From the NCBI GenBank assembly GCA_019637295.1, contig JAHBVX010000011.1, positions 81,735 through 145,734 of the forward strand: DNA of 64,000 bases, given 5' to 3'. The notes under the pieces were generated by a model. It worked only from the letters and a program-made list of their open reading frames with translations. It did no database searches and had not been told where the DNA came from. Below are positions 24,031 to 40,174 of this stretch, piece by piece. This DNA comes from Polyangiaceae bacterium (lineage in GTDB: Bacteria; Myxococcota_A; Polyangia; Polyangiales; Polyangiaceae). The stretch's first letter is position 1, and every line of letters starts with the position of its first letter. A program made the translations under genes and the position numbers.

Positions 24031-24786
24031 ATGATGGCCGGACGACCCCGAGCCCTGCCGCTCGTCGCTTCCGGGGAGGAGCTCGACGGCGTCGCCCCGG
24101 TCGCCTTCGAGCGCGCTGCGCGGCGAGCGACCCCGGGAGACTCGGTTCATCGGGGTCTCGTTCGGGTGGCGCTCACCATCGCCGCTCACGCCGTGCAGCA
24201 GTGCGTCGCTCCGGGGGGCCGAGGCCCGCTGCAGGCCGCGCTGCAGCTCGCCGAGCAATGGGCGGACGGGGCGGCCAGCGAGGCCGCGGTCAAGAAGGCC
24301 CGCAGCGAGGCGTTCGCGGCTTCCGTCGCTGCCGAGCGACTCACCGTGGGCGCCATCGCGGAGCTGCTCGGAGCCGCCGCTACCAAGCGACACACGGCGA
24401 TCGACGTCCACGCGGACAGCACCGTGCTCCGGCACGTCGGACTCGGGGCGTACTACGCGACCAGCGCCGTGCTGTGCGCGCTCGATGGCGTGAGTGAGCC
24501 CAAGGCGCTGTGTCACGCGCTGCCCCAAGCGGCCGGCGCCATCGCCTATCATCTCACCGCCCTCGGTCCGGCGCGCTCGCAGGAGCTGCGCAGTCGCGCC
24601 CTGGAGCAGGCGAGCTGGGAGGCCGAGCGACCTTTCGCGCCGGCGCACCATCCGGCGGAGGCCATCGCGCTGCAGCTCTTTCACGAGTATCTCGGGGCGG
24701 GCTGGAAGGACCGCAGCGATGGCCTCCGGCTCGGCTTCGCGGAGCTGGCAGAGTGGGCTCTGCCGCCCCAGCTGCGAGCCAGCTGA
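24031..24786 (+). CDS. Conserved-looking protein of unknown function
   Basis: 251 residues, starting 4 nt after serB (ATG at 24031, or 24034). Ala-rich and helical, with no signal peptide. It has one His/Asp cluster (KRHTAIDVHADSTVLRHVG) around residues 112-130 and an Arg/Glu-rich C-terminus. I do not recognise the family. Tight coupling to serB is the only clue to role. Confidence 0.7.
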   Translation: MMAGRPRALPLVASGEELDGVAPVAFERAARRATPGDSVHRGLVRVALTIAAHAVQQCVAPGGRGPLQAALQLAEQWADGAASEAAVKKARSEAFAASVAAERLTVGAIAELLGAAATKRHTAIDVHADSTVLRHVGLGAYYATSAVLCALDGVSEPKALCHALPQAAGAIAYHLTALGPARSQELRSRALEQASWEAERPFAPAHHPAEAIALQLFHEYLGAGWKDRSDGLRLGFAELAEWALPPQLRAS

Positions 24787-24901
24787 GCGAGCTTGGCGCT
24801 GGTCAGCGAGAAGAGCCCCGCGAACGAGCGTCACGAGAACGTCACTGCCTCTCGGCGTGTTCGGTTTGCGACGCGGGCACTGTTGGGTCAGGCTCGCCGC
24901 C

Positions 24902-26542
24902 ATGACAGTCTCGCGTAGAGATGCGCTTCGTGCCCTCGGGTTGCTCAGCGCGTCCTCGGCAGTACCTGTCGCCGGCTGCGGCAGCGACCCCGAGGAGCCC
25001 AGCGTCGAGGAAGACGACTTGCCCCGCTACTCCCACGACGGCAGCCCTGGCCCCGCTGCGCTGTTCAGCCACGCGGTCGCCAGCGGTGACCCCCTGTCGG
25101 ACGGTGTCATCCTCTGGACGCGAGTGAGCCCCGAGGCGCCGGGCCCGGTCGAGGTGTGGTGGGAGATCGGCGTCGATCGCGCCTTCCGCCAGCGGGTGCA
25201 GGTGGGCACGGTCACGACGGACGAGCAGCGCGACTACACCGTCAAGATCGACGTGCGCGCGCTCGAGCCCGGCAAGACCTACTACTATCGCTTCTTCGCG
25301 CTGGGGCGCGGTTCGGTGGCGGGTCGCACGCGGACCGCGCCGGTGGGCGACGTCCAGCGGCTGCGCTTCGGCGTCGTCTCCTGTTCAAGCCTGGCTCACG
25401 GCTACTTTCACTCCTACAGGAACCTCGCGCGCCGCCTGGATCTGGACGCCGTCCTGCACCTCGGAGACTACATCTACGAGTACGGCAACGCGGCCTACGG
25501 AGGTGTGCGGCAGTACGAGCCCGCGCACGAGATCGTCACGCTCGAAGACTACCGAACGCGCTACGCGCAGTACCGGCGGGACGCCGACTTGCAGGAAGTT
25601 CACCGCCAGCACCCCTTCATCGCCGTCTGGGACGACCACGAGTCCGCCAACGACTCGTACAAAGACGGCGCCGAGAATCACCAGCCCTCGACCGAGGGTG
25701 CGTGGGACGCGCGCAAGGACGCCGCGATCCGGGCGTACCACGAGTGGATGCCGATCCGAGACGGCGAGGACGGCCGCATCTGGCGAAAACTCTCGTACGG
25801 CGACCTCGTCGACCTCGTGATGCTCGACACCCGCCTGTGGGGTCGCGACAAGCAGCTCGAGGGCACCGTGCTCGGCGGCCCGGTGGTCTCCGATCCCGAG
25901 CGTACCCTGCTCGGACTCGATCAGGAGGCTTGGCTCGCGGAGCAACTCGACGCGTCCACGGCCAAGTGGAAGCTCATCGGCCAGCAGGTGATGATGGCGC
26001 ACCTCAAGACCACGGGTGCGCCCAACTCGGAGGGCGGCGGAATGGTCGTCAACTACGATCAGTGGAACGGGTACGACTCCTCCCGCAGCCGCTTCTTCGA
26101 TCTGCTCGAGCAGGGCAAGATCGACAACGTGATCGTGCTCACCGGGGACATTCACAGCTCGTGGGCCTTCGATCTGACCCGCGACCCCAACAACCCCTCA
26201 GCCTACGATCCGGCCACGGGCATGGGTTCGCTGGCGGTGGAGTTCGTGACCCCCGCGGTCACCTCGCCTGGCTTGCCGCCGCTGTTGGCCAGCGCGCTGT
26301 CCGGTTTGTTCTCGCAGAATCCGCACATGCGCTTCGCCGAGGCGACGCTGCGCGGGTACATCGTCTTGGATCTGACGCCCAAGCGGGCTCAGGCGGCGTG
26401 GTATCACTTCGACGACGTCGTGGAGCCCAAGAACGCGAAAGAGACCTTCGCCGTCGCGTTTTCCACGGAAGATGGGCGCAACACGTTGCTCGAGGACGCC
26501 GCCGCAGCCAAGGCGCCCCAAGGCCCGCCGGCCGCCCCCTGA
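24902..26542 (+). CDS. phoD: PhoD-type alkaline phosphatase/phosphodiesterase, Tat-exported
   Basis: 546 residues. The Tat signal SRRDALRALG is followed by a hydrophobic stretch and VAGC, so it is probably a Tat-exported lipoprotein. An N-terminal PhoD_N Ig-like domain (FSHAVASGDPLSDGVILWTR) leads to the phosphatase core. Metal-site segments are visible: SCSSLAHGYF, HLGDYIYEYG, FIAVWDDHESAND, LIGQQVMMAHL and VLTGDIHSSW. PhoD enzymes use Ca/Fe and release phosphate from mono- and diesters outside the cytoplasm, usually under phosphate limitation. The ATG at 24902 begins the Tat signal directly. Confidence 0.92.
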   Translation: MTVSRRDALRALGLLSASSAVPVAGCGSDPEEPSVEEDDLPRYSHDGSPGPAALFSHAVASGDPLSDGVILWTRVSPEAPGPVEVWWEIGVDRAFRQRVQVGTVTTDEQRDYTVKIDVRALEPGKTYYYRFFALGRGSVAGRTRTAPVGDVQRLRFGVVSCSSLAHGYFHSYRNLARRLDLDAVLHLGDYIYEYGNAAYGGVRQYEPAHEIVTLEDYRTRYAQYRRDADLQEVHRQHPFIAVWDDHESANDSYKDGAENHQPSTEGAWDARKDAAIRAYHEWMPIRDGEDGRIWRKLSYGDLVDLVMLDTRLWGRDKQLEGTVLGGPVVSDPERTLLGLDQEAWLAEQLDASTAKWKLIGQQVMMAHLKTTGAPNSEGGGMVVNYDQWNGYDSSRSRFFDLLEQGKIDNVIVLTGDIHSSWAFDLTRDPNNPSAYDPATGMGSLAVEFVTPAVTSPGLPPLLASALSGLFSQNPHMRFAEATLRGYIVLDLTPKRAQAAWYHFDDVVEPKNAKETFAVAFSTEDGRNTLLEDAAAAKAPQGPPAAP

Positions 26543-29624: not shown

Positions 29625-30230
29625 ATGAGACGGACTTCCCCCGCGGCGCTGCGCAATCGCGGTCCGCTGCTCGAGGTGCTCGAGGACGTGCTGCCGCCCG
29701 CGGGCCTCGTGCTCGAGGTCGCGAGCGGTAGCGGCGAGCACGTCGTGTTCTTTGCGTCGGCGCTGCCGGCGTTGCAGTTTCAGCCGACGGACCGCGACCC
29801 CGAGGCGCGCGCCAGCATCGCGGCCCACCTCGGCGAAGCGAACCTACCCAACGTGCGAGCGCCGATCGAGCTGGACGCGGCCTCCCCGCGCTGGCCGATC
29901 GCGCAAGCCGACGCGCTCCTGTGCATCAACATGATCCACATCGCTCCGCTGGCAGCCACCCGGGGACTGTTCGCGGGCGCGGCGCGGGTCCTGCCGCCCG
30001 GCGCGCCGCTCTTGACCTACGGCCCCTATCGCTTCTCCGGTAGCTTTACCGCCGAGAGCAACGCCGCCTTCGATCGCTCGCTGCGCGCGCAGGACCCGGC
30101 TTGGGGCGTGCGTGACGTCGATGAGCTGTTTCCGCTGGCGGTCGCGCACGGCCTGCACCCCGAGCGGACCGTCGCGCTCCCTGCGAACAATCACGCGCTC
30201 GTGTTCCGTCGCGTGTCGCCCGCTGCATGA
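29625..30230 (+). CDS. DUF938 family methyltransferase-like protein
   Basis: 201 residues. DUF938 proteins are small SAM-methyltransferase-fold proteins. Here the SAM loop is VLEVASGSGEHVVFFA near residues 29-44, followed by QPTDRDPEA and INMIHIAPLAAT, which match the family well. The end YGPYRFSGSF...SNAAFDRSLRAQDPAWGVRD is also diagnostic. The acceptor is unknown. A lipoprotein kinase gene starts 38 bp downstream. Confidence 0.88.
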   Translation: MRRTSPAALRNRGPLLEVLEDVLPPAGLVLEVASGSGEHVVFFASALPALQFQPTDRDPEARASIAAHLGEANLPNVRAPIELDAASPRWPIAQADALLCINMIHIAPLAATRGLFAGAARVLPPGAPLLTYGPYRFSGSFTAESNAAFDRSLRAQDPAWGVRDVDELFPLAVAHGLHPERTVALPANNHALVFRRVSPAA

Positions 30231-30268: not shown

Positions 30269-32368
30269 ATGGCTGACCTCGCGGCCTCGCGCGCCGCTCT
30301 GCTGGTCGCGGTCGCGGCGAGTCTTGGCTGCAGCCGCGAGCCCTCCCGACCCGCGCCCCCGACGGGCCGCAGCGTTGCGGGGCGTGTCGAGCCGTCCGCG
30401 CCCCCCCGTGTTTCCGCGTCGCCAAAGCCCACAGCGGATGCCGCCGCTCCGACCGTGCCGAGCGGGCCCTGTCCGCCGGACATGGTGTTCGTCGACGCGG
30501 CAGTGTGCGTCGATCGCTTCGAGACTTCGCTGGTGGACGACGCCACGGGGCGCTCGCTGAGCCCATACTATCCGGTACTGAGTCAGTACGAGGGCTACCT
30601 GCGCGATCAGAAGTACCTCGCGAAGAAGCTCGAACGGGCTCACGACGCCGGAGTGAAACCTCCCGTCGAGTTCCCGCCGCTCGAAGACTTCCAGCGCAGC
30701 GGTCGGTTCGTCGCGCGGGCGGTGTCGCGCGCGGGCGTGGTGCCGAACGGCTACCTCACGCGCGACACGGCCGCCGCGGCGTGTCGCGTCGCGGGCAAGC
30801 GGCTGTGCACCGCGCGGGAGTGGCGCACAGCCTGTCGCGGGAGCCTGGGTACGAAGTACCCCTACGGCGAGCGCTATCAGCGGTCGCACTGCAATCTCGG
30901 ACGCGGGCGTCACCCGTCGCGCATCCTGTTCGGTCATCCATCCGCGAGCGTCGTCGACCCTCGGCTCAACCTCACCGAGCTCGACGGAGCGCCGCTGCTG
31001 CGCCAGACCGGAGAGTCGCCGGTGTGCGCGAGCCCGTGGGGGAAGGACGCAGTCTACGACATGGTGGGCAACCTCGACGAGTGGGTCGACGACGCGAAGG
31101 GCGCGTTTCTGGGCGGTACCTACTCGCGCTACACGGCTGCTGGTTGCGACGCGGTCGTCAGCGCACATCCCCCGGGCTATTTCGACTACTCGACCGGCGC
31201 CCGCTGCTGCGCCGCGCCCGAGAGCTCCGCCCCGGGCGACGCGGGCGCGAGCTACGACCCGCGCGGCGAGACCGAGCGCGCCGAGCGGCTGATCGACGAG
31301 CGGCGCTACGCCGAAGCGCGCGCGTTGCTCGCGTCGCTCGAGCCGCGAGCCCCGGGCGAGCCGCGGCTAGCCGCGCTCTACGCGCGGGCCATCGATCGCG
31401 ACCCGGGTTTCGCCATGCGCGCGCGCGAAGTGGACGAGGCGAGCGGCTATGACGCCATCAAGCACCTAGGTGGAGGCAGCACCATCACCCTCCGGTTCAT
31501 CTCGGGCGAGCGCGTGGTCGGCGCGTTCAAGCCGGCGCAGACCCGTGGCCAGAGCGACTACGTCGCCGAGATCGCGTCCTGGCGCCTGTGCGTGCTCCTG
31601 CGCTGCGCCTTCCATGTGCCGCGCAATGAGCCCGTGCGGCTGCGCGAGCGTACCTTCGACGCGCTCTACGGTCGCGTGGACGACGACAAGCAGCGCGCCT
31701 ACCGCGACAAGAACTTCGCGGACTTGGCTTGGGTGGAGGAGCCCCCCGGCGAGCGGTGGCTCTTCGGTGCGCTCGAGGACTGGGTCCCCAACCTGGTGGA
31801 GCTACCCATCGAACACGTCCACGTCTACCGCCGGTGGCTCCTGGTCGAAGCCAGCGGCGGCGCAGCGCTGGGCGGGCTCGATACTCCGGCGATCGACGCC
31901 TACACGTCGAAGGAGGCGCGCGGATCCGAGACCCATCTGCGCATGATGAAGAAGCAACTGCGCGGCATGACGCGAGCGGAGCTCGCGCGCGAGCTGAGCC
32001 AAATGCTGGCGTTCGACTTTCTGGTCGGCAATTGGGATCGGTTCAGCACGCGCGAGGCGTACTACGGCACGAACTGTCACGTCGCCGACGGTCGGCTGGT
32101 GTCGATCGACAACGGTGCGGCCTTCCGCGACGCGCCGCACCCGCAGTCGAGCGAGCGCATCGCGCTGGTCGAGCGATTCAGCCGCCAGTTCGTGACGGCG
32201 CTGCGCGGGATGAGCGAGTCGGTGACGCTGCGGCGGCTATTCCCCGAGGCAACCCGCGCGGAGCAGGTGAAGTTTCGCGCCTTCTGGCGGCAGCGCGCGG
32301 CGCTGCTGACGCGCATCGCGTCGCTGGAGGCCCGCCACGGCTCCGAGCAGGTGCTCGCCTTCCCCTGA
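30269..32368 (+). CDS. Lipoprotein: SUMF1/FGE-like domain fused to FAM20C-like kinase domain
   Basis: 699 residues. The signal peptide MADLAASRAALLVAVAASLGC has a lipobox (SLGC). Residues about 65-330 form a SUMF1/formylglycine-generating-like fold: CPPDMVFVDAAVCVDRFE, RVAGKRLCTAREWRTACRG, YDMVGNLDEWVDD, GGTYSRY and STGARCCA. Its Cys pattern is not that of active FGE, so it is probably a binding module. Residues about 395-690 match animal FAM20C kinases: FKPAQTRGQ with K421, AEIASW with E434, FLVGNWDRF with D590 and VSIDNGAAF with D614, all four key residues being present. Family knowledge says FAM20C phosphorylates secreted proteins. Here the signal places the kinase outside the cytoplasm, which is unusual for bacteria. 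The ATG at 30269 gives the clean signal peptide. Confidence 0.82.
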   Translation: MADLAASRAALLVAVAASLGCSREPSRPAPPTGRSVAGRVEPSAPPRVSASPKPTADAAAPTVPSGPCPPDMVFVDAAVCVDRFETSLVDDATGRSLSPYYPVLSQYEGYLRDQKYLAKKLERAHDAGVKPPVEFPPLEDFQRSGRFVARAVSRAGVVPNGYLTRDTAAAACRVAGKRLCTAREWRTACRGSLGTKYPYGERYQRSHCNLGRGRHPSRILFGHPSASVVDPRLNLTELDGAPLLRQTGESPVCASPWGKDAVYDMVGNLDEWVDDAKGAFLGGTYSRYTAAGCDAVVSAHPPGYFDYSTGARCCAAPESSAPGDAGASYDPRGETERAERLIDERRYAEARALLASLEPRAPGEPRLAALYARAIDRDPGFAMRAREVDEASGYDAIKHLGGGSTITLRFISGERVVGAFKPAQTRGQSDYVAEIASWRLCVLLRCAFHVPRNEPVRLRERTFDALYGRVDDDKQRAYRDKNFADLAWVEEPPGERWLFGALEDWVPNLVELPIEHVHVYRRWLLVEASGGAALGGLDTPAIDAYTSKEARGSETHLRMMKKQLRGMTRAELARELSQMLAFDFLVGNWDRFSTREAYYGTNCHVADGRLVSIDNGAAFRDAPHPQSSERIALVERFSRQFVTALRGMSESVTLRRLFPEATRAEQVKFRAFWRQRAALLTRIASLEARHGSEQVLAFP

Positions 32369-32390
32369 GGCGCCGCGGGGAGTGCTGGTG

Positions 32391-32870
32391 ATGGATAAGA
32401 AGGCGCTGCAGAGACAACTGCTCGAGCTGCTCCGGGAGGAGCGAGAGGTGCTCGTCGCGGCGCAAAAGCACGCTGCGGAGGGCGCCATGCACGAGGAGAG
32501 TCGCGCCGAGAGCGACAAGGACATGCGCGCGACCGAGGCCTCTTACCTCGCCCGGGGACAGGCGCTGCGCGTGGCCGAGCTGGACGTGGAGATCGCCCGG
32601 ATCGCAGCGCTGCAGTTGCTCGCTGCCGCGCCCGGCGCCGCGATCGCGGCGGGCGCGCTGGTCTCGCTGTCGTCCCCGCGGGGGAAGCGGCAGGTCTTCT
32701 TGCTGCCCGCGGGCGCGGGCAGGCGACTCGTGTCTGAAGGCGCTCCGATCAGCGTCGTCACGCCCGCGTCTCCACTGGGGTCTACCTTGCTCGGCGCTCA
32801 CGAAGGCCAGGACGTGGACGTCGAGCTGGGCGACCGGGTGGAGACCTACCGCATCCTGCGCGTGACGTGA
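32391..32870 (+). CDS. GreA/GreB-like protein
   Basis: 159 residues from the ATG at 32391, with GGGGAG 7 nt upstream. The N-terminal coiled coil has alternating Lys/Glu (KALQRQLLELLREEREVL, and AMHEESRAESDKDMRATEAS resembling the Gre 'E...R.E.D..' region). The C-terminal FKBP-like part has ALVSLSSPRGKRQVFLLPAG, ISVVTPASPLGSTLLG and ELGDRVETYRIL, matching the GreA_GreB fold. Classical Gre factors rescue backtracked RNA polymerase; this may be a Gre-like variant binding polymerase's secondary channel. It lies 22 nt after the kinase gene and is probably co-transcribed with it. Confidence 0.82.
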   Translation: MDKKALQRQLLELLREEREVLVAAQKHAAEGAMHEESRAESDKDMRATEASYLARGQALRVAELDVEIARIAALQLLAAAPGAAIAAGALVSLSSPRGKRQVFLLPAGAGRRLVSEGAPISVVTPASPLGSTLLGAHEGQDVDVELGDRVETYRILRVT

Positions 32871-34863: not shown

Positions 34864-35430
34864 ATGCGAGCTCTCGCCATCGCGCTCGTCGCCCTGTGCG
34901 GCTGCACGCCGCCGCGGAAGGACTCCGTTCATCCGGTGGTGTGCGGCGCCGAGGTGGCAGCCGACGTAGCCGAGCCCAGCGACCACGACCTGCGACGGGC
35001 GGCGGCCGAGGCCCCTTACGTCGTACGCGGCCGGGTGCGGTTCGCGGGGACGGCCGTGGCACGCCGCGGGCAACAGCAGCGCTCGTACGTGTACGTGATC
35101 GTGGACGCGCTCGACTTCCTGCGCGGGGATCCGTGGCAGATCCACCCGCGCTACCGCCGCAGCTTCCCGCTGCTCGAGGTCGAAGTGCCCAGCGACGGCG
35201 ACGGCGTTGCCGAACCGCGCGTGCTCGGCAGCCTGCGCTGTCGCGAAGAGGAAGTGTACTACTTCTTCATCGCGCCGCCGACGACCGACAGCCAGAGTGG
35301 CCCGGCGCCGCCGGCGCCCGTGCAGCGCTCGTTCGGAGCGTTTCACGTCCAGCTGCTCTCCATCGTGCCCGAGCGAGCCGCGGCGCGGGTCGAGGCCGCG
35401 GTCGGCGGCGCTCAGGCGGCGCAGCCGTAG
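34864..35430 (+). CDS. Lipoprotein, paralogue of 42120-42602
   Basis: 188 residues. Signal peptide MRALAIALVALCGC with a lipobox-like LCGC, then TPPRKDSVHPVVCG. Shared with the second copy in the window: CTP-x-R-x-D-x-x-HP-x-x-C, RVRF-x-GT, an FLRGDP motif, an L-x-CRE segment before a YFF/FLF stretch, and a final Phe-Gly-Ala-(x)-H. The family is unknown. The C-terminus overlaps the end of the sigma factor gene on the other strand by 19 bp. Confidence 0.8.
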   Translation: MRALAIALVALCGCTPPRKDSVHPVVCGAEVAADVAEPSDHDLRRAAAEAPYVVRGRVRFAGTAVARRGQQQRSYVYVIVDALDFLRGDPWQIHPRYRRSFPLLEVEVPSDGDGVAEPRVLGSLRCREEEVYYFFIAPPTTDSQSGPAPPAPVQRSFGAFHVQLLSIVPERAAARVEAAVGGAQAAQP

Positions 35431-36098
35431 TCGGCGCGAGGCGCGTCGAGGTCGCCTCGGAGCTGAGTCAACGCGCGGGTACGCAGTTGGCTCACCCGCG
35501 ACGCGGTGACGCCGAGTCGCTTGCCCACGGCTCCGAGCCGCGCGTCGGCGAGACAGGTCTGCTCCACCACCGTGCGCTCCCGCGCGGGCAAGCGACGGAT
35601 CGCCCGACCGATGCGCTGCCAGGTGTCCCGCTCGATCACCAGCGACTCGGGGCTGGTGTCGCGGCAGTCCAGCGGGTCGGCGTCGAGCGAGTCCACCCGG
35701 AAGTCCGCGGCGGACCGCTGCTGTTCGACCGCCTCGGAGGCCACCCCGAGCTCCCGAGCCACGTCGTCCGTCTCGGGCGCTCGACCGAAACGCTGTGACA
35801 GCGCGCGCTCGGCTCGCTGCATCGCGCGCACCCGGCGTCGCTCCTGGCGGGAGAGCGCGTCGTGGCCGCGGAGCTGGTCGCGGATCGCACCGCGAATGCA
35901 GCGCTCGGCGTACAGGCGAAATAGCTGTTCGTCGCCCTCGAAGCGACTGGCCGCCGCGGTGAGCCCGAGGTTGCCCGCGCCGATCAGGTCGTCCACGTCG
36001 ACGCGACCTCCGACCGAGCGGGCGATGGCGCGGGCCATGCGCTGAACGAGGGGGAGCAGCGGAAGGATGCGGAGGGTGTGGGGGCTTCGTGCGTTCAC
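35412..36098 (-). CDS. Sigma-70 family factor (FliA / sigma-B/F-like)
   Basis: 228 residues from a GTG. Region 2: DVDDLIGAGNLGLTAAASRF and RGAIRDQLRGHDALSRQERR, the FliA-type linker. Region 3: RFGRAPETDDVARELGV. Region 4: a helix-turn-helix in GKRLGVTASRVSQLRTRAL. No anti-sigma gene is adjacent and no flagellar genes are in the window, so it is better seen as an alternative (stress or development) sigma factor than as FliA. TTAGCT ends 9 nt upstream of the GTG. The Cys near the end (DYGCAA) is unusual. Confidence 0.9.
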   Translation of the reverse strand: MNARSPHTLRILPLLPLVQRMARAIARSVGGRVDVDDLIGAGNLGLTAAASRFEGDEQLFRLYAERCIRGAIRDQLRGHDALSRQERRRVRAMQRAERALSQRFGRAPETDDVARELGVASEAVEQQRSAADFRVDSLDADPLDCRDTSPESLVIERDTWQRIGRAIRRLPARERTVVEQTCLADARLGAVGKRLGVTASRVSQLRTRALTQLRGDLDAPRADYGCAA

Positions 36099-38639: not shown

Positions 38640-40064
38640 TCAGAAGGCCGACCGGGACAGGTTGGCGCTGTTCTTCTCGGCGCTGGTCTTGCTGGCTTCC
38701 CGCGCCTTGGGCGACGCGGCGGGGGCGGCGAAGGCGCTCTTGGCCTCCGCCACCTCGGCGCGCTGTCGCTCCAGCGCAGGTCGAGCGGCCTGGGGAGCGG
38801 CCGCCGCGGACTGCTCGAGCTCTGCCAGGTTCTCGTCGAGCAAGCGCTGGGCCGTCGCCGTATCTCCGCGGGAGAACGCCTCGGTGGCGGCCAGCTGCCG
38901 CAGCGAGGCGAGCGCGCTCGTCGCGCTGGCGAGCACGGCACCGTCCCGTCGCTCGAGCACCAAGCGGCGGTCTCTCTCGCCGGTGACCCGCAGCGCCGGC
39001 AGGATGGCCCTGGCCTGGTCACCGCGAACGTGACGCCAGCTCACCTGCGACGCGAGATCCAAGCGCTGGCCGTGCTCCGCGTCGGCGGTCAGCTGGACGA
39101 TCACGCGCCGCTCGTCGCCCGCGAAGAGCGAGCCGATGCGCAGCTCCACTTCGTCACCCAGGACGTTGGCGTCGGCGCCCACGGCGCGCACGAAGCGCAT
39201 GCCGGCAGGCAGGGTGAGGCGAGCCCGGGCATCAGTCACCACGGTGGTCGCCGTCTCGTCCAGCTCACGCTGCAGGAAGCCGGCCAAGGCGACGGCGTCG
39301 CGTACGAAGCCGAAGTTGCCGCGCCCGGCGCTCGACACGGCGGCCATGTAGCCTTCGTCGAAGTCCAGGCCGATGCCCAACGCAGAGACCGTCACCTGCT
39401 CGTCCGTTGCCGAGCGGGCGATGCTCTCTGCCTCGGCGCGGGTGCTGTCGAGCCCGTCGCTGACGAGCACGACGCGGCGCACCCGAGACCCGGACGCCCG
39501 CGACAGCTCGCGTACGCCGGCGCGCAGCGCTGGCGGGATGTTGGTGCCCCCGCTGGCCTGGAGGTCGCTGATGTTGTGGAGCAGTTCTTGCCGGACTCGT
39601 CCCACGCGGGCGAGAGACTGGACCAGTGAGTGGTTCGAGTCGTAGCGAACGAAAGCGACCTCGTCGTCGTCACGCATGCGCTCGATCAACGTGCGGACGC
39701 TGCGCTTCGACGTCTCGATCTTCTCTCCCGACATCGAGCCGGAGGTATCGAACACGATCGCCAGGGAGAGGGGAGCGCGCTCCTCGGCGACCATCCGCTC
39801 GTCGTTGGCGCGCAGCCGCAGCTCCGCGAAGATGTCCTCCCGGCCGCCGCTGGGAGTCAGCTCATGGCTGAGGGACAGCGTGCCACGAGCCCCCGGCCCC
39901 GAGAATTCGGCGCCGTTCTGGCCAGCCAAGAGCGCTTCCCCGAAGGTGGTCTTCGCCACCGGGGAGCGCGCCAGGACCAGGCCGCCGACCGCCAACACGA
40001 CCGCGCTCGCGGCCACACCACGCCGCGCGCGCGGCGACCCTAGAAGTCGTCGAAACCAGGACAT
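38640..40064 (-). CDS. Membrane-anchored VWA-domain protein
   Basis: 474 residues from the ATG at 40064, with GGAGGAG just upstream. An N-terminal membrane anchor (about 20-38) is followed by a beta-rich segment. The von Willebrand A domain starts at SLAIVFDTSGSMSG, an intact MIDAS DxSGS, with LQASGGTNIPPAL and LVSDGLDST downstream. After the VWA come a beta region (280-380) and a helical, Ala-rich tail. VWA domains bind metal and protein ligands. With its two small membrane neighbours it looks like a complex on the envelope. Function is unknown. Confidence 0.87.
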   Translation of the reverse strand: MSWFRRLLGSPRARRGVAASAVVLAVGGLVLARSPVAKTTFGEALLAGQNGAEFSGPGARGTLSLSHELTPSGGREDIFAELRLRANDERMVAEERAPLSLAIVFDTSGSMSGEKIETSKRSVRTLIERMRDDDEVAFVRYDSNHSLVQSLARVGRVRQELLHNISDLQASGGTNIPPALRAGVRELSRASGSRVRRVVLVSDGLDSTRAEAESIARSATDEQVTVSALGIGLDFDEGYMAAVSSAGRGNFGFVRDAVALAGFLQRELDETATTVVTDARARLTLPAGMRFVRAVGADANVLGDEVELRIGSLFAGDERRVIVQLTADAEHGQRLDLASQVSWRHVRGDQARAILPALRVTGERDRRLVLERRDGAVLASATSALASLRQLAATEAFSRGDTATAQRLLDENLAELEQSAAAAPQAARPALERQRAEVAEAKSAFAAPAASPKAREASKTSAEKNSANLSRSAF

Positions 40065-40174
40065 GCTCTCCTCCAATCAGGGACCGCAGCTCAACGCCCA
40101 CGGTGGGCGACTCGTGACAGGGCTGGCGGTCAGAGGCTTGGTACGCGCTGCCCGTCCGGAAGATCTCGAAAATG

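Follow-up and report, generated by a model that had tools for sequence, protein, structure and literature searches.

The FAM20 kinases (Pfam family PF06702, with FAM20C, FAM20B and FAM20A) have been treated as an animal family in a review (PMC7948968) and were called Metazoa-specific in one kinase network, the same source placing four Legionella kinase families near FAM20/CotH (PMC9758233). The spore-coat kinase CotH has been described as a bacterial FAM20C-like enzyme (PMC12189002). The present study concerns a fused lipoprotein gene in a 64,000-nucleotide stretch of a Polyangiaceae genome of the phylum Myxococcota (contig JAHBVX010000011.1, positions 81,735 to 145,734), referred to below as the window. 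The plus-strand open reading frame (ORF) at 30269..32368 of the window encodes 699 amino acids from an ATG at 30269 and comprises a lipoprotein-type N-terminus, an FGE/SUMF1-like module, a short TPR-like stretch and a C-terminal FAM20-like kinase domain (residues 386-699; 31424..32365, plus strand). Bacterial members of PF06702 are listed by InterPro or Pfam, and in the literature searched no description of this Myxococcota FAM20-like family was found, an earlier mention remaining possible, and nothing was found on an FGE-FAM20 fusion. On balance, we lean towards an active extracytoplasmic, lipid-anchored FAM20-like phosphotransferase. The first-pass annotation of the window had placed the ORF at the same position, with the stop ending at 32368, and had taken it for an extracytoplasmic protein kinase with an FGE-like sensor; its observation was confirmed, and its interpretation was supported in part.

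Relation of the kinase domain to the FAM20 family

The FAM20 likeness draws most of its weight from the sequence profile, more than from the fold. Queried singly against the PDB, the kinase domain retrieved just one virus coat protein (E 1.2), and useful matches came from profiles alone. When a profile of 32 bacterial domains, including that of the fused protein, was searched against 177,635 distinct PDB sequences, FAM20C was the top match (E 6.8e-28), followed by FAM20A, FAM20B and worm FAM20; the six best distinct sequences were all FAM20 (E 6.8e-28 to 9.8e-18), and PI4K-II came next at 5.7e-4. Because this profile holds members nearer to FAM20C than the window domain is, a profile of the window's own subfamily only (6 sequences) was also run, and here again FAM20C came first (6.4e-5), the first four matches being FAM20C or FAM20A. 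No HipA entry appeared in either of these PDB searches at E up to 10. Scanned singly against Pfam (E up to 1), 25 of the 32 profile members matched Fam20C (best 2.9e-14), 13 HipA_2 (best 2.7e-5), 12 FAM198 and 3 PI3_PI4_kinase; CotH did not appear in the family lists of the window protein and its 32 relatives, from which weak matches may have been filtered out. Additionally, the same genome encodes a paralogue (L001) of 388 amino acids with a lipoprotein-type N-terminus, which passes the Pfam Fam20C cut-off (52.7 bits) and aligns with the window protein at a pairwise E of 7e-7.

The fold comparison was made with a structure model built from five sequences. In Foldseek, ranks 1-11 were occupied by FAM20C or worm FAM20 (E 7e-7 to 7e-5), with rank 12 at 5e-3, and in VIA-align ranks 1-9 were all FAM20 (Z 13.1-11.7), followed by PI4KII (10.8), CtkA (10.5) and HipT (8.2). 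The HipA-like and PI4K-like kinases belong to the same superfamily, and their match is weaker than that of FAM20, clearly so in sequence and by a smaller margin in fold. The first-pass assignment to FAM20C is borne out in this sense, and the outcome that it named as refuting, HipA or a phosphatidylinositol (PI) kinase as a clearly better hit, did not occur. A HipA toxin reading was also considered and rejected, FAM20 standing above HipA in both the profile and the fold comparisons. More broadly, a cytoplasmic, ordinary bacterial HipA-like or PI-kinase-like enzyme would find a footing in the HipA_2 matches in 13 of the 32 relatives and in the window signal peptide, which fails the signal rule applied below; since FAM20 outranks HipA and PI kinase in every comparison, and signals or anchors occur in most of the relatives examined, we consider such an enzyme very improbable. 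Kinase-like folds with a different chemistry, such as AMPylation or glutamylation (SelO, SidJ), have been described (PMC10870513), and SidJ ranks low in the VIA-align comparison (Z 7.0 to 6.2), but the best matches and the aligned motifs are those of FAM20, and a chemistry of this type is, if anything, slightly less probable still. CotH and SelO did not occur among the fold matches listed, an absence to which no weight is given.

Conservation of the catalytic residues was followed in 90 unique kinase domains (E up to 1e-10), which were taken from the best matches and from regions chosen across the phylum rather than drawn at random, identical or contained domains having been merged before counting. 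Glu434, the alpha-C Glu of VAEIAS (AEIA; 31568..31570), Trp505 and Asp614 of SIDNGA (32108..32110), the metal-binding DFG-type Asp aligned with LDNG of FAM20C, are invariant in 90/90, and so are Asp583, Asn588, Asp590 and Arg591 of the catalytic segment D583-FLVGN588-WD590-R591 (32015..32041, located in FDFLVGNWDRFS), which aligns with FDFLMGNMDR of FAM20C. Lys421 of GAFKPAQ (31529..31531; all these positions on the plus strand), aligned with the Lys of the FAM20C FKP motif, is Lys in 80 domains and Arg in 10 (L022, L016, L023, L046, L025, L052, L054, L056, L060 and L063), the other catalytic residues staying in place in the latter. The invariance of the core residues argues for kept catalysis. 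The family resembles CotH in being a bacterial, FAM20C-like, atypical kinase, and differs from it in the invariant D614, since CotH is described as having no DFG-type metal motif (PMC12189002).

The named motifs of the first-pass annotation, with the ATP-site Lys, the Glu and both Asp, are indeed in place (K421, E434, D590 and D614); its statement that they follow FAM20C in order and spacing was too strong as to the spacing, the beta3-alphaC loop being about 13 residues shorter in the bacterial domains than in FAM20C by alignment and its acid not being conserved. Moreover, the window kinase domain holds only three Cys (Cys441, 446 and 603), and the pattern of four disulfides given for FAM20B/C (PMC5865150) is absent from its core. 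Because of the shorter loop, the unconserved acid and the absent disulfides, the bacterial proteins are better called a FAM20-like sister branch. With the animal proteins they share the best match by profile and fold and the Lys, alpha-C Glu, N-x-D-R and D-N motifs, and the location beyond the cytosol predicted for the window protein would be a further likeness. The window protein differs in that it is bacterial and predicted to be lipid-anchored, carries FGE-like and TPR-like parts and lies below the Pfam cut-off.

Export signals and spread in the Myxococcota

The N-terminus of the window protein consists of a hydrophobic stretch, AALLVAVAASLG, followed by Cys21 at the end of a predicted signal peptide (30269..30331, plus strand), whose lipobox-like SLGC departs from the textbook LxGC but agrees with a PROSITE-like pattern. 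Cys21 is invariant in 4/4 related FGE-lipoproteins, and the N-terminus of the same-genus relative passes the signal rule. The lipoprotein-type N-terminus proposed at first pass thus finds support, with a doubt about its charge. The true start of the gene is uncertain, because a second possible ATG lies in frame at 30227, where it shares the letters ATGA with the stop codon of the DUF938 methyltransferase gene upstream, and translational coupling from this ATG is therefore possible; the hydrophobic stretch and the Cys are kept by either start. The same-genus relative (genome G077; L038:9366-11441, minus strand) carries the entire fusion with 59% identity over 632 amino acids, and since two genomes carry the same fusion an assembly artefact is unlikely. 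The two genes appear to be under purifying selection: the ratios of nonsynonymous to synonymous substitution (dN/dS) are ~0.20 (FGE part), ~0.30 (kinase part) and ~0.55 (linker), and they are only rough because dS is 1.2-1.4 (1.3-1.4 in the FGE and kinase parts).

The spread of the family was searched in the window's phylum and 14 control genomes. With the bacterial profile, a member was detected in 122 of the 377 genomes sampled from the phylum (99/235 among those of good quality), while the Pfam Fam20C model detected one in 27 of 282 sampled genomes, 22 of them above the cut-off, and in 0/14 controls. This difference suggests that many members are probably unannotated.

By the signal rule, the 90 proteins comprised 23 of lipoprotein type, 29 of Sec type, 7 of Tat type, 15 with a membrane segment, 12 with neither and 4 truncated, which gives a signal or membrane segment in 74/90 relatives, the window protein not among them. 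A signal was present in 59/90 against 12.3 expected from codon shuffles of the pre-domain part, the membrane segments having no such control. The rule is imperfect in both directions: in several proteins counted as Sec type, such as L003 and L004, the supposed signal is an internal membrane segment of a long anchored protein, and hydrophobic N-termini are visible in several of those counted as having neither (L012, L071, L085). Many of the nearest relatives (f45, f28, L002) are long proteins with a membrane segment ahead of the kinase domain, and a CxxC...CxxC zinc-ribbon-like motif occurs within the first 200 residues of 13/90 proteins, all longer than 550 amino acids. In a hand count of 17 anchored clade members, Lys/Arg residues were more numerous before the segment than after it in 10, equal in 4 and fewer in 3; L023, L053 and L033, which belong to the other clade, have signal-type N-termini and all carry more Lys/Arg before the segment, were omitted, as were L016, L088 and L073, which have no segment above threshold. 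This excess moderately supports a kinase domain on the outside. The Tat-type members deserve notice: Tat transports proteins that are already folded, so these kinases might in principle be active, or take up nucleotide, before they leave the cytoplasm.

A wider reading, which we put forward tentatively and with some doubt, is that the Myxococcota possess a phylum-wide extracytoplasmic FAM20-like phosphorylation system that uses lipoprotein, Sec, Tat and membrane-anchored routes and shares its ancestry with animal Golgi FAM20. Its anchored members, with a cytosolic zinc-ribbon and the kinase outside, would be the inverse of classical receptor kinases, and the FGE-TPR-kinase lipoprotein of the window would be a recent ligand-binding elaboration.

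Proposed activity and its alternatives

The activity, nucleotide, membrane, ligand and substrate (a protein Ser or a glycan hydroxyl) that we infer for the window protein would fit together as follows. After Sec export and acylation on Cys21, the protein would be held on the outer side of a membrane, where its Cys-rich FGE/C-type-lectin-like module might bind a ligand or partner, or position the enzyme, with no generation of formylglycine. The kinase domain would bind nucleotide and metal via K421, E434, N588 and D614, with D590 as the catalytic base, and would phosphorylate an envelope or secreted target. The ATP could come from lysed prey or from a micromolar pool in the periplasm such as that of E. 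coli, whose periplasm is reported to hold 24 uM ATP per 10^10 bacteria after uptake from outside (PMC7432876).

Several results speak against an active exported FAM20-like enzyme. With the window sequence alone, Pfam Fam20C (PF06702) is the best kinase family, though at 13.7 bits (E 0.05-0.17) it lies under the cut-off of 26.8; the structure model is of moderate confidence (predicted local distance difference test, pLDDT, 65), its Foldseek TM-scores are 0.38-0.46 with a root-mean-square deviation of 10-12 A, and, because VIA-align rows within 1 count as tied, the lowest FAM20 row (Z 11.7) is tied with PI4KII (10.8). The signal peptide of the window protein fails the signal rule because its n-region is without net positive charge, and 12/90 proteins, the window protein included, have no signal or anchor by that rule, a further 4 being truncated. 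The neighbourhood of the window gene yielded no conserved gene for a partner or substrate. At the same time, according to the source cited for the periplasmic pool, no ATP carrier is known in the inner membrane (PMC7432876). Finally, animal FAM20C requires an acid in the Kbeta3-Kalpha3 (beta3-alphaC) loop (PMC5413348, PMC5865150), represented by Glu213 of worm ceFam20 and Asp152 of hydra FAM20 (PMC5865150), and this acid is not conserved in the bacterial domains: position -5 from the alpha-C Glu is acidic in 15/90, and positions -1 to -8 are each acidic in at most 17/90. The window domain has Ser429 at -5 and Asp430 at -4, a position acidic in 4/90.

The missing loop acid bears directly on the possibility of an exported pseudokinase, in which the FAM20-like fold would serve for binding or as a scaffold and would transfer no phosphate, in the manner of FAM20A, a pseudokinase with Gln at the loop-acid position (PMC5413348, PMC5865150). 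The scarcity of ATP outside the cytoplasm and the Arg in place of the ATP-site Lys in 10/90 relatives point in the same direction. However, the extra loop acid is not universal, because canonical kinases rely on the alpha-C Glu alone, and the remaining catalytic residues are invariant in 90/90, so a pseudokinase seems to us unlikely.

The preferred reading of an active phosphotransferase leaves the substrate class open, and it thus overlaps with a FAM20B-like (xylosylkinase-like) enzyme acting on a glycan, a lipid or another small molecule, which we regard as possible, though on the unlikely side. Among animal FAM20 proteins, the glycan kinase activity of FAM20B has been described as the ancestral one (PMC5865150, PMC7948968), so glycans and proteins are equally possible targets; hydra FAM20 (5xoo) heads the VIA-align list (Z 13.1, a tie with the 12.8 of FAM20C), PI4K-II comes next after the FAM20 family, and a polysaccharide deacetylase gene adjoins the paralogue and its relatives. 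This adjacency concerns the paralogue, however, and not the window gene, and no glycan-binding residues were matched.

If active, the members of this family would be kinases that bacteria use beyond the cytoplasm, and the question of ATP supply could be put to the test with a single purified domain. Given a family that is large and, by prediction, mostly exported, the idea of extracytoplasmic phosphorylation in bacteria becomes open to experiment, and the origin of animal secretory-pathway kinases gains a bacterial point of comparison.

The FGE-like module, the fusion and the neighbouring genes

The FGE/SUMF1-like module spans residues 66-314 (30464..31210, plus strand), with a core at residues 168-276 (30770-31096) that matches PF03781 (FGE-sulfatase) at E 6.8e-9 and with 36.2 bits against a cut-off of 23.3, in agreement with the first-pass assignment. 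A profile of this part matched SUMF2/SUMF1 structures (E 1.4e-7 to 3e-6), the match being confined to positions 163-217 and, weakly, 262-276; PDB entry 5nxl, named a serine/threonine kinase, was among the structure matches, and weak matches to the GldK and TIGR02171 lipoprotein models were also obtained. A model of the FGE part from three sequences reached a pLDDT of 35 and was not used. All ten Cys that follow the lipid Cys are invariant in 4/4 FGE sequences, a Cys content of the disulfide type that speaks for the extracytoplasmic reading. In active FGE, the catalytic Cys pair is spaced C-x4-C (human Cys336/Cys341), and a search of the window protein for such a pair found none in the FGE part, the sole instance being at 441 in the kinase part. 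A formylglycine-forming role is therefore unlikely, and the reading of this part as an active formylglycine enzyme was rejected. In short, the module resembles FGE/SUMF1-like domains as an FGE-like domain on a lipoprotein, above the Pfam cut-off, and differs from them in the absent C-x4-C and the partial structure match. An FGE-like domain has been described with a C-type lectin fold (PMC7159879); the sensor role assigned at first pass remains a guess. The module is followed by the short TPR-like helical stretch (residues 341-373; 31289..31387, plus strand; PF14559 E 0.0039, under the cut-off), which forms helices in the model and can be aligned with the anchored relatives.

In the window's taxonomic family, the Cys-rich proteins to which the FGE part belongs have expanded, with at least 5 matches in many single genomes. 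Only 2/90 kinase proteins, namely the window protein and its same-genus relative, carry this part, the phylum-wide kinase family having mostly other means of export or anchoring. At 18 other FGE loci (L112-L129), the ORF stops within ~20 residues of the conserved RCC, and thus no domain follows the FGE part there, while L129 has a long N-terminal extension; this reading of architecture covered L112-L129, and listed matches in ORFs >1,000 amino acids were left out. Many of these Cys-rich FGE-like proteins (L112-L129 and others) have lipoprotein-like N-termini and end near DYSxGxRCC.

In a midpoint-rooted tree, the window protein and its same-genus relative cluster, with support of 96/68, with membrane-anchored TPR-kinase proteins from other families and classes; their sister group is supported at 98/87, and the paralogue lies elsewhere in the tree. 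Horizontal transfer or patchy loss is possible in view of this grouping. In the simplest account, the TPR-kinase part would have lost its own anchor and then joined an FGE-like lipoprotein, and both the anchored and the lipoprotein arrangement would place the kinase outside the cytoplasm.

The window gene lies between the DUF938 methyltransferase gene (29625..30230, plus strand; PF06080 E 2.9e-68) and a gene for a GreA/GreB C-terminal-like protein (32382..32870, plus strand; PF01272 E 2.1e-5, just under the cut-off). In the genome of the same-genus relative, a DUF938 gene is also found upstream, but 2.7 kb away, no counterpart of the GreA/GreB-like gene occurs in the stretch compared, and the fused gene is flanked by genes for a DUF1223 protein (12 bp) and a beta-helix protein (10 bp), both with lipoprotein-like N-termini by eye, a setting that speaks for the exported reading. 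Because these flanking genes differ from those in the window, no partner is indicated. When a recurrent partner was sought among the neighbours of the family, the clusters proved to be lineage-specific, those of one taxonomic class taking in housekeeping genes (pantothenate kinase, MiaB-like), and no partner is claimed. A promoter and terminator scan was uninformative, giving no promoter and 1 terminator-like site against 0.9 expected.

Some lineages have a conserved gene order of their own. The paralogue cluster (L001/L039 of G000:C12, L109, L088, L089) is conserved and includes a polysaccharide deacetylase and a Cys-rich protein that looks secreted, ends in a sorting-like tail and, in three of them, has 34-37 Cys in 306-344 residues; S-x-E sites of the FAM20C substrate type are not enriched in this protein (4, 4 and 2 against 2.3, 2.1 and 1.8 in shuffled sequences; P 0.19, 0.14 and 0.54). 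The f45 (UBA4248-type) lineage keeps the order RNase E/G, kinase, a lipoprotein-like protein of ~420 amino acids and a protein of ~500 amino acids (L003, L004, L006, L104, L107); the latter two have no Pfam match in L004 and are candidate partners or substrates. In other families of the class (L070, L072, L077-L079, L081, L083, L085, L087), a smaller kinase, mostly with an N-terminal hydrophobic segment, lies close to a thioredoxin-like protein tethered to the membrane and to a type III pantothenate kinase (Pfam run on L077).

Within the window itself, a gene at 24494-26542 (plus strand), ~4 kb upstream, is read from its sequence as a PhoD-like alkaline phosphatase or phosphodiesterase and has no counterpart in the compared stretch of the same-genus relative. 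Additionally, the genes at 35412-36098 and 38640-40076 (both on the minus strand) encode, respectively, a protein of the sigma-70 family and a von Willebrand factor A domain protein that looks exported.

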